This document shows positions 8,306 through 19,341 of a stretch of DNA of 34,420 bases, in pieces (the stretch's first letter is position 1; every line of letters begins with the position of its first letter). A model generated the notes under the pieces. The model was given only the letters and a program-made list of their open reading frames with translations. It did no database searches and was not told the origin of the DNA. Source of the stretch: Thermoplasmata archaeon (GTDB taxonomy: Archaea > Thermoplasmatota > Thermoplasmata > Halarchaeoplasmatales > Halarchaeoplasmataceae); contig PUNG01000136.1 in the NCBI GenBank assembly GCA_003551675.1, positions 1-34,420 on the forward strand. Direction: 5' to 3'. Position numbers and translations under genes: made by a program.

Positions 8306-9238
8306 ATGACGTCCGTAAAAAGATTCGGCGCCGAAGTCGCAGATACAGAGGAAAGGCCTTCCACCATAGCTTTGGGCATAGGCGGGGCAGGTCGAAATAT
8401 CATCTCGGATATAGACTCTAAGTCTCTGACCAATATAAGGATGTATGAAGTGGGTACCACGGAGCGGGAGCCGGACATATCCTTCATAAAGATATCAAAA
8501 GAGGACATGCACGAAGTCTATCAGTCGAAATACTCCGTTGGTAATAGACATCTCACCCCTTCCGAAAAAAATATAAAACGTAGGATGAGATCCGCCGATA
8601 TTTTTTACTTGGTCTCGGGTCTCGGTGGAGATACTGGTAGTTGGTCTTCTCTGGCATGTGCCGAACTCAGTAAAAAATTCAGTGCGTTCACCATGGGCTT
8701 CTTCGCCAAACCCTTTGAGAGTGAGAACATCAGGAGGAGGAGATTTGCCGATGAAGCACAAAAAAAGATACAAGAACACGTTGATGTCGCCGCCTTCTTT
8801 TCCAACAGCAGACTTTTGGATATGGATAGGAACTTGCCCATGATGGATGCTTTCCAGGTGATGAACACCATCATGAGACTGCCCATGGAGGATTTGAATG
8901 CGGTCATGACCAAAGAGGATATACCACACCTGAAAAATTTCTGTAAGGGATTGAACGAATTCAGGGTCGGCGCCGGTTATGGGAAGGGTAGAGATAGAGG
9001 TAAGAGAGCTTCTAAGGAAGCTCTCAGATCTCCTTGGTTGAAGGATTTTGAAGAATACTATACCGTATTAGCGGTGGTCACCAGTGGGAAAGGTACGGGT
9101 GAAGTGGAGGCACAATCCGCCATGGAAGAGATCCGTAAAGAATGGCCCGATTCTAAAATAATGTGGGGCCTGAGAAAGGATCCGTCCATAGATGATAGGA
9201 CCCGTGTAACGGTTCTAGCGGGTACCTCTGAGGGGTAA
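8306..9238 (+). CDS. Divergent FtsZ/tubulin-superfamily protein, GTPase-impaired by sequence
   Basis: This 310-aa protein keeps the architecture of the tubulin/FtsZ GTPase domain. A T1-like loop GIGGAGRN is at residues 24-31 and a T4 signature-like loop GLGGDTGSWSS at 105-115. The stretch LLDMDRNLPMMDAFQVMN aligns with the FtsZ segment LLEVSPEMPLDQGFGMMD, and GAGYG (223-227) lies where FtsZ has GGGGY. The tubulin signature GGGTGTG is altered. The T7 loop, NLDFND in the canonical copy at 18304, is replaced by HLKNFCKG and has no acidic residue. I infer a protein that may bind GTP but is unlikely to supply normal catalysis. It could be a regulator or scaffold of the true FtsZ. It is leaderless, with its own TATA box. 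Confidence 0.8.
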   Translation: MTSVKRFGAEVADTEERPSTIALGIGGAGRNIISDIDSKSLTNIRMYEVGTTEREPDISFIKISKEDMHEVYQSKYSVGNRHLTPSEKNIKRRMRSADIFYLVSGLGGDTGSWSSLACAELSKKFSAFTMGFFAKPFESENIRRRRFADEAQKKIQEHVDVAAFFSNSRLLDMDRNLPMMDAFQVMNTIMRLPMEDLNAVMTKEDIPHLKNFCKGLNEFRVGAGYGKGRDRGKRASKEALRSPWLKDFEEYYTVLAVVTSGKGTGEVEAQSAMEEIRKEWPDSKIMWGLRKDPSIDDRTRVTVLAGTSEG

Positions 9239-17811: not shown

Positions 17812-17923
17812 GTTAGACATCTTCCGAAAATTTTATAAATAAAAACAGCACTTACACTATTGTCTGACGTATAACGTATAAATGTCGGACTAAATAAAAA
17901 AAGGTGGCTTAAGGTGTCGGACA
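17812..17923 (+). promoter_or_regulatory. Promoter with repeated TGTCnnAC operator-like sites before the RHH gene
   Basis: Four copies of an octamer related to TGTCGGAC surround the promoter: GTTAGACA (17812-17819, inverted), TGTCTGAC (17861-17868), TGTCGGAC (17883-17890) and TGTCGGAC (17915-17922), the last reaching into the GTG start codon. The plus-oriented copies are spaced 22 and 32 bases apart, close to whole helical turns. Two TATA-like boxes lie among them (TTTTATAAATA at 17831-17841 and CGTATAAAT at 17875-17883), as does a direct repeat ACGTATA. I infer autoregulation by the adjacent RHH protein. Confidence 0.5.
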
Positions 17924-18228
17924 CAAAACGTATAACCGTCAGAATACCCGTTGAGATGGCTGGTGAGCTTGACGAATTGGTAGAGAAAGGTGACTACTCT
18001 TCTACTTCTGAAGCAATCAGGACCGCGATAGACGACCTAATAAAGAACAAGAACGCTCCCGAGCACATATCTAAAGTTACGGTCGATCTACCAAAAAAGA
18101 AAGTGGGTGAGATCGAAAATCTCATAGAAAGGGGTGATTCAGTGAATGTGGACGATGCCATCAGGACCGCGGTGCGGGAATACGTGCGAGAGAGGATAAA
18201 GGAGTATAAAAGAGATATCAAAGAATAG
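17914..18228 (+). CDS. Tandem ribbon-helix-helix DNA-binding protein, CdrS-like position
   Basis: This 104-aa protein is made of two ribbon-helix-helix (CopG/MetJ-type) domains in tandem. The first spans about residues 5-47 (ITVRIPVEMAGELDELVEKG, then SEAIRTAIDDLI), and the second about 54-97 (VTVDLPKKKVGEIENLIERG, then DDAIRTAVREYV). One chain may therefore form a pseudo-dimer. The GTG start has GGTG seven bases upstream. Its place directly before ftsZ recalls haloarchaeal CdrS, a short RHH regulator of cell division linked to ftsZ2. That assignment is by analogy, since CdrS has a single RHH domain. Confidence 0.88.
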   Translation: MSDTKRITVRIPVEMAGELDELVEKGDYSSTSEAIRTAIDDLIKNKNAPEHISKVTVDLPKKKVGEIENLIERGDSVNVDDAIRTAVREYVRERIKEYKRDIKE

Positions 18229-18270
18229 TTTTTCCAACCTGTATACGCTGGATCTCTTCACCGAAACCGT

Positions 18271-18278
18271 CTTAAATC
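18271..18278 (+). promoter_or_regulatory. TATA-like box for ftsZ
   Basis: CTTAAATC is centred 29 bases before the GTG at 18304 and 32 before the adjoining ATG at 18307. ftsZ may have its own leaderless transcript in addition to read-through from the RHH gene. Confidence 0.4.
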
Positions 18279-18303
18279 AGCATAATCCACTATCCGTGCC
18301 GCC

Positions 18304-19341
18304 GTGATGAATTCCGCAGGGTTGTTTGATATGAAAAGAAGGAATGATAGAAGGAGGAAAAAGAATACAGCCTCAGGTCTGAACATATACGTAGTAGGAG
18401 TAGGAGGAGGAGGGAACAACAGCGTTGACAGATTGAGCAGGATAGGTGTTTACGGAGCGACAACCATCTCCGTGAATACCGACGAAGTGCACCTTAGGAG
18501 TAAAAAGGCGGACAAAAAGATGCTCATCGGTCGTAGGATGAACAAGGGCATGGGTGCAGGAGGTAATCCTTCTGTAGGGAGAGAATGCGGTGAATCGGCC
18601 TCCGACGGATTCAAAAAGATGTTCTCCGACGCGGACCTGGTTTTCTTAACCACGGGTCTAGGCGGAGGTACCGGCACAGGAGCCGCACCCTTGATAGCCG
18701 AGATAGCTCGAAGGAGTGGAGCCATGGTGATAGGCATCGTAACACTTCCTTTTTCGGTGGAAGGTAACAGAAGAAGACTCGCATGGCAGGGCGTACAGCA
18801 GATAGAATCATACGCCAACTCCACCATAACTCTAGATAACGATAAACTTCTGGAAGTGAGTCCCGAGATGCCGCTGGACCAGGGATTTGGTATGATGGAT
18901 TCCGTTATATCCAACCTGGTAAAAGGCGTCACCGAGACCCTCACCAGGCAGTCTTTGATAAATCTGGATTTCAACGATCTTCGTACCGTACTCGGAGGAG
19001 GAGGATATTCGACCTTGTTGACCGGCGAAGCCCCCTCGGAAGATCCGAAACAGGTGGTGAAGGACGCCGAATGCAATCCATTCTTGGACGCGGATTATGA
19101 AGGAGCTAAGAGGGCATTGATACACCTGTCTGGAGACTCTAACGGCCTATTGGTCAAAAAGACACACGACATCGTGGGCATGGTCACTTCTAAACTTGAC
19201 AAGGACGCGTCGGTCATAGTCGGAGCTAGGATCGACCACAAGTGCAAGAACAAGATAAAGATGATGACCGTACTGACCGGTTTGAAAAAACGGAACATAA
19301 GCCCGACCATAGAGAAAAGCAGTTTTCCAGAGATACACTGA
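18304..19341 (+). CDS. ftsZ: Cell division protein FtsZ
   Basis: This is the tubulin-like GTPase that assembles the division ring. The nucleotide-binding loops are intact: GVGGGGNN (32-39) and the signature GLGGGTGTG (118-126). The catalytic T7 loop NLDFND (220-225) and the following GGGGYSTL are present. The 345-aa chain has a basic N-terminal extension (MKRRNDRRRKKN) and a short C-terminus, without an obvious long linker. The start is the GTG at 18304 or the ATG at 18307, three bases apart. It follows the tandem RHH gene by 75 bases. Confidence 0.97.
   Translation: MMNSAGLFDMKRRNDRRRKKNTASGLNIYVVGVGGGGNNSVDRLSRIGVYGATTISVNTDEVHLRSKKADKKMLIGRRMNKGMGAGGNPSVGRECGESASDGFKKMFSDADLVFLTTGLGGGTGTGAAPLIAEIARRSGAMVIGIVTLPFSVEGNRRRLAWQGVQQIESYANSTITLDNDKLLEVSPEMPLDQGFGMMDSVISNLVKGVTETLTRQSLINLDFNDLRTVLGGGGYSTLLTGEAPSEDPKQVVKDAECNPFLDADYEGAKRALIHLSGDSNGLLVKKTHDIVGMVTSKLDKDASVIVGARIDHKCKNKIKMMTVLTGLKKRNISPTIEKSSFPEIH

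Follow-up and report, generated by a model that had tools for sequence, protein, structure and literature searches.

The DNA analyzed here (the window) is a stretch of 34,420 nucleotides from a Thermoplasmata archaeon, in which a gene for a 104-residue protein with two ribbon-helix-helix (RHH) domains, hereafter rhh, lies directly upstream of ftsZ on the same strand (Table 1). The preliminary description, made from the letters alone, had proposed a fused two-RHH protein encoded 75 bases before ftsZ, and both points were confirmed: Pfam finds RHH_1 in two stretches of the 104-residue protein (E 5.7e-16; 58.3 bits against a gathering score of 20.5), and the gene that follows after a gap of 75 bp encodes a clear FtsZ (PF00091, 5.7e-38; TIGR00065 with a score exceeding its cut-off), whose homology with relatives starts at about residue 22–30. 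The regulator protein is matched in 58 of 61 related genomes, and in most of the 52 oriented loci its gene is followed by an FtsZ match, the few exceptions being mostly contig ends; the order of tandem RHH gene and ftsZ, which the preliminary description had suggested examining in relatives, is class-wide. Comparison of the orthologous loci revealed no conserved promoter or site in the gap between the two genes, and co-transcription of ftsZ with the upstream rhh gene is favored for this reason.

Identity of the regulator as a type II antitoxin (ParD/VapB-like RHH) was rejected, since the partner gene in the oriented loci is ftsZ and no toxin gene adjoins it. A PDB search with the regulator returned weak antitoxin-type matches only, and the search for viral homologues gave one weak match and no convincing case. 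The genome to which the window belongs contains eight FtsZ-family matches. A diverged FtsZ-family protein is encoded in the window itself at 8306-9238, with 24% identity to the window's FtsZ and with GGDTGS replacing the usual GGGTGTG loop; elsewhere in the genome (contig C154, 3379-4478) a second RHH gene adjoins an FtsZ-like gene, and one GTCTGAC lies nearby.

Table 1. Features of the rhh-ftsZ locus, in coordinates of the window.
Feature	Position	Strand	Remarks
Upstream octamer TGTCTAAC (GTTAGACA on +)	17812-17819	-	probably no conserved operator
BRE-like CCGAAA of rhh promoter	17824-17829	+	position conserved across family and class
TATA box TTTATAAA of rhh promoter	17832-17839 (promoter element 17824-17841)	+	position conserved across family and class
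Operator site 1, GTCTGAC	17862-17868	symmetric	near expected transcription start; half of class-conserved 22-bp pair; octamer at 17861-17868 (+)
Second TATA-like box	17877-17882	+	not conserved; missing in genus relatives L002 and L003
Operator site 2, GTCGGAC	17884-17890	symmetric	22 bp after site 1; octamer at 17883-17890 (+)
Probable Shine-Dalgarno of rhh, AAAGGTGG	17900-17907	+	from sequence
Operator site 3, GTCGGAC	17916-17922	symmetric	overlaps start codon; family-specific; octamer at 17915-17922 (+)/17916-17923 (-)
Tandem RHH regulator, 104 aa	17914-18228	+	two RHH_1 stretches (Pfam)
ftsZ	18304-19341	+	PF00091, TIGR00065; start codon uncertain

Paired sites at rhh promoters

Four copies of an octamer, TGTCnnAC, had been described around the rhh promoter, one of them covering the start codon, and all four are present as described, the last overlapping the start codon of the gene, which begins at 17914. 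The window as a whole shows no enrichment of the octamer, with 17 copies against 13.25 expected; the evidence therefore lies in the clustering and conservation of the sites rather than in their count. While the sites are real, the octamer is not the conserved unit, which is instead a 7-bp palindrome, GTCnGAC. The upstream octamer is not conserved and probably does not belong to the operator array as had been supposed, being complete in only three of five genus members, with the rest of the family keeping the GACA half alone. Likewise, of the two TATA-like boxes noted originally, the one at 17832-17839 is conserved and the one at 17877-17882 is not.

Paired GTCnGAC sites, 21, 22 or 33 bp apart, occur in 37 of 52 orthologous rhh promoters and in 12 of the 20 families of the class, as compared with none of 5200 shuffled rhh promoters; the lack of conservation upstream of orthologues that would have spoken against the preliminary description is thus not what is observed. 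In most orthologues 29–31 bp separate the first base of the TATA box from that of the first operator. Spacings of 22 and 32 bp had been predicted for pairs elsewhere; the former, seen in the pair at 17862 and 17884, is conserved across the class, whereas the latter (33 bp in relatives) holds within the family only. The site at the start codon (17916) is kept in all 14 loci of the family and is absent outside it. Within the family the first codons at this site differ (GTG-TCG, ATG-GCG-TCG, ATG-TCG-TCC), and its Asp codon is always GAC, which elsewhere in the rhh genes accounts for 51 of 136 Asp codons, the 14 loci being related and not independent.

Variation among families takes several forms. 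Two rhh promoters of family f8 keep the 22-bp pair with one mismatch, family f10 has a 12-bp pair at its rhh promoter, and families f6, f13, f17 and f21 have the RHH gene but no pair at its promoter, which weighs against the mechanism proposed below. In two metagenome-assembled genomes (MAGs) named Thermoplasmata a single-RHH homologue precedes ftsZ, and GTCnGAC sites are found at that gene too.

Genome-wide distribution of pairs and predicted targets

Genome scans were performed by pattern in 61 genomes, with the reversed pattern as control. The 22-bp pair gives 52 matches versus 3 for its reversed control, and the 11/12-bp pair gives 105 versus 23. In the genome of the window all four matches to GTCnGAC-N4..27-GTCnGAC (11–34 bp apart) are located at rhh-ftsZ, smc and a membrane-protein gene; in two other genomes (G003, G007) every pair match lies at a named target, as do all but one in each of three more (G002, G009, G011), and some pair matches elsewhere fall within genes. 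The conservation, position, spacing and genome-wide specificity of the sites can be read directly from these sequences.

The search for spaced pairs near other division genes, proposed in the preliminary description, located paired sites at smc and at a second ftsZ. A pair (11, 12, 21, 22 or 33 bp) is present at the smc promoter in 28 of 45 genomes, where none is expected, and mostly begins about 30 bp (28–32 bp) after the TATA box; these 45 promoters were retrieved independently of the pattern, though a few came from the first pattern matches. In the genome of the window the smc operator consists of three units 11 bp apart (GTCCGAC, GTCCGAT and GTCTGAC). The second ftsZ is divergent from a gene resembling deoxyhypusine synthase, and its sites are paired in much of the family but single in the genome of the window (L155); the upstream stretches of that genome's other ftsZ paralogues (L317-L320) contain no paired sites.

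In the family of the window, 15 of 16 genomes have an 11/12-bp pair at the membrane-protein gene and several have one at a KaiC-like ATPase gene; members of families f2, f6, f8, f14, f18 and f20 likewise have the pair at the membrane-protein gene. Both targets were found via the pattern, and their share is hence biased upward. The membrane protein matches no Pfam family. Its structural model, which is of low confidence, shows roughly four long helices plus a disordered tail, whose end in the family of the window reads DDWE[IL].

Several further features were seen next to operators. A leader element, GGGATGGGATGC, follows the operator at smc and at the membrane gene across the class, in many genomes; at the membrane gene it reads GGGATAGGATGC and runs into the start codon. 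As read by eye, a short open reading frame, ATGCACTCA..., may be present in the smc leader in the genome of the window (contig C127); it would span about 23 codons and terminate within the start of smc. A CheB-like response regulator has a 12-bp pair upstream in two genus members, and small uncharacterised proteins in f9 (WSLKKIVE motif) and f8 (MSDDMPEEGLNHY) begin at or just after an 11-bp pair, with GTCnGAC partly encoding their MSD start.

Proposed mechanism and alternatives

As judged from sequence, the tandem RHH protein is probably related to CdrS and probably represses, via GTCnGAC pairs, both its own gene and a regulon for division and segregation; we infer both that this protein is the binder and that the effect of its binding is repression. 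The protein would bind pairs whose starts are 11/12, 21/22 or 33 bp apart, and since these spacings amount to whole helical turns (one to three) the sites would lie on one face of the DNA. The predicted pairs are located at or just after the transcription start, a position that suggests repression by blocking of polymerase. Binding to the pair at its own promoter would result in self-repression and, through co-transcription, in repression of ftsZ, and the common operator would tie smc, the second ftsZ (in the family of the window) and the membrane protein into one division and chromosome-segregation regulon, whose genes would be freed jointly whenever the regulator is scarce or inactive. This reading keeps the outline of the preliminary description, which was too narrow in its targets: the sites at smc, the second ftsZ, the membrane gene and the KaiC-like gene are additional to it. 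The broader proposal, of a class-wide archaeal cell-cycle regulon in which an autoregulated tandem-RHH repressor binds helically phased pairs of GTCnGAC where transcription starts and thereby controls the Z-ring, SMC and an unrecognised membrane protein of the divisome together, has in our estimation roughly an even chance of being correct. If it is, archaea possess an operator code that couples FtsZ-based division to the organisation of the chromosome. For the timing of division relative to chromosome segregation in FtsZ archaea, a short and highly specific operator common to ftsZ, smc and the conserved membrane gene would provide a concrete wiring diagram, and the finding yields a candidate new division protein together with a motif that is open to scanning or mutation.

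The preliminary description had envisaged a pseudo-dimer; in this alternative one tandem chain folds intramolecularly and reads one GTCnGAC, as its two RHH domains could make one RHH unit. However, the first RHH strand has the form R-x-T-x-R, with R10 invariant and at least 90% conservation of R6 and T8, and although the 7-mer is symmetric, an acidic residue mostly occupies the position equivalent to R10 in the second domain. For this reason two chains, each contributing its first domain, would presumably read such a 7-mer more easily than a single pseudo-dimer. The AlphaFold model of a single chain (pLDDT 73; pTM 0.40, which is low) contains no strands and no strand pairing, a result that does not decide between the two modes of pairing. 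The palindromic 7-mers and the acidic residue of the second domain fit inter-chain pairing at least equally well, leaving the pseudo-dimer unsupported, and we regard it as possible but doubtful.

A different regulator might instead bind the operators, as CdrL does in haloarchaea, with the tandem RHH gene being merely one of its targets and the encoded protein acting elsewhere. The sole reproducible ChIP peak of CdrL lies upstream of cdrS-ftsZ2 (PMC7439475), and in ten of ten haloarchaeal genomes we find a palindrome, GTAAGAC-GTCTTAC, exactly once per genome, with direct reading placing it at the cdrS promoter in nine; this palindrome is a candidate CdrL site, since its single copy agrees with the single ChIP peak. 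The genome of the window also encodes further RHH proteins that could serve as binders. This explanation nevertheless appears unlikely: whereas CdrL has a single site, several division genes here carry the operator, to which the tandem RHH protein alone among regulators is linked across the class, and the two MAGs with a single-RHH gene before ftsZ also carry GTCnGAC there. It is likewise improbable that the tandem RHH protein binds the operators but activates transcription, in the manner of haloarchaeal CdrS, which positively affects ftsZ2 and ftsZ1 (PMC7439475, PMC8406309): the sites here begin some 30 bp past the TATA box and extend downstream, where a bound protein is expected to block polymerase, whereas most H. 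volcanii CdrS sites are located 41–110 nt upstream of the start. A functionless chance arrangement of octamers, with which the unenriched octamer count and the intragenic pair matches would agree, is refuted for practical purposes by conservation at the rhh and smc promoters, by the absence of pairs from shuffled promoters, by spacings and TATA distances that are fixed across families, and by the far lower counts of the reversed-pattern controls.

Comparison with known regulators

The repressor proposed here shares aspects with several RHH systems. NikR, in which a pair of RHH units contacts two half-sites spaced by about 22 bp, has a geometry similar to that of the pair described here; it has, however, no second RHH domain and the regulator here has no metal-binding domain, and NikR profiles give weak matches to the RHH part of the regulator only. 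The aCcr1 protein of Sulfolobales (PMC12796447, PMC7617429) is likewise an RHH repressor of cell-division genes that controls further cell-cycle genes, but it acts on the ESCRT/Cdv system (cdvA), and its profile (NCBIfam NF053762) matches the regulator weakly, at 23.7 bits versus a cut-off of 60. The linkage of RHH_1 genes to archaeal ftsZ2 contexts has already been reported (PMC9871819), in a study that is not known to describe an operator, a regulon or a tandem architecture. The linkage of RHH genes with ftsZ and haloarchaeal CdrS are thus already known, whereas novelty appears to lie in the operator, in where it is placed and in which genes it serves; a literature search returned no paper describing a regulon of this kind in the lineage.

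The closest counterpart is haloarchaeal CdrS, as the preliminary description had recognized in calling the circuit related to it yet different in architecture. CdrS (NF058555) is the best NCBIfam match of the regulator, with both domains matching, at 75.5 bits and thus below the cut-off of 100. In both lineages an RHH gene stands directly upstream of an FtsZ gene, and cdrS-ftsZ2 has been reported across archaeal clades except DPANN (PMC7439475). The affected genes overlap as well: knock-down of cdrS-ftsZ2 in H. volcanii lowers ftsZ1, ftsZ2, sepF, an smc homologue and HVO_0739 (PMC8406309), and the targets predicted here from common sites comprise ftsZ, smc and a membrane protein. A profile of the membrane target, applied to 10 haloarchaeal genomes in search of a counterpart such as HVO_0739, gave no convincing match there.

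However, haloarchaeal CdrS is a single RHH protein of about 60 residues, as are the haloarchaeal CdrS genes recovered in this analysis single-RHH, whereas the regulator here is a tandem protein of 104. CdrS is chiefly an activator that works from upstream (PMC8406309), its mapped sites lying mostly upstream of starts whereas those described here lie at the start, and its own promoter is not among the 18 listed CdrS sites whereas the regulator's own promoter is included here. At the haloarchaeal cdrS-ftsZ2 promoter the bound protein is CdrL, a different RHH protein whose gene precedes cdrS and occurs in halophiles only (PMC7439475). CdrL resembles the regulator here in that it belongs to the RHH family and acts at the promoter of an rhh-ftsZ operon, and differs from it in having one genomic site and, if the palindrome is correctly assigned to it, a different recognition sequence. 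Since one operator here serves both the regulator's own promoter and its targets, whereas the haloarchaeal cdrS promoter has a separate and unique palindrome, the comparison suggests that a CdrS-type circuit has been wired differently in the two lineages.
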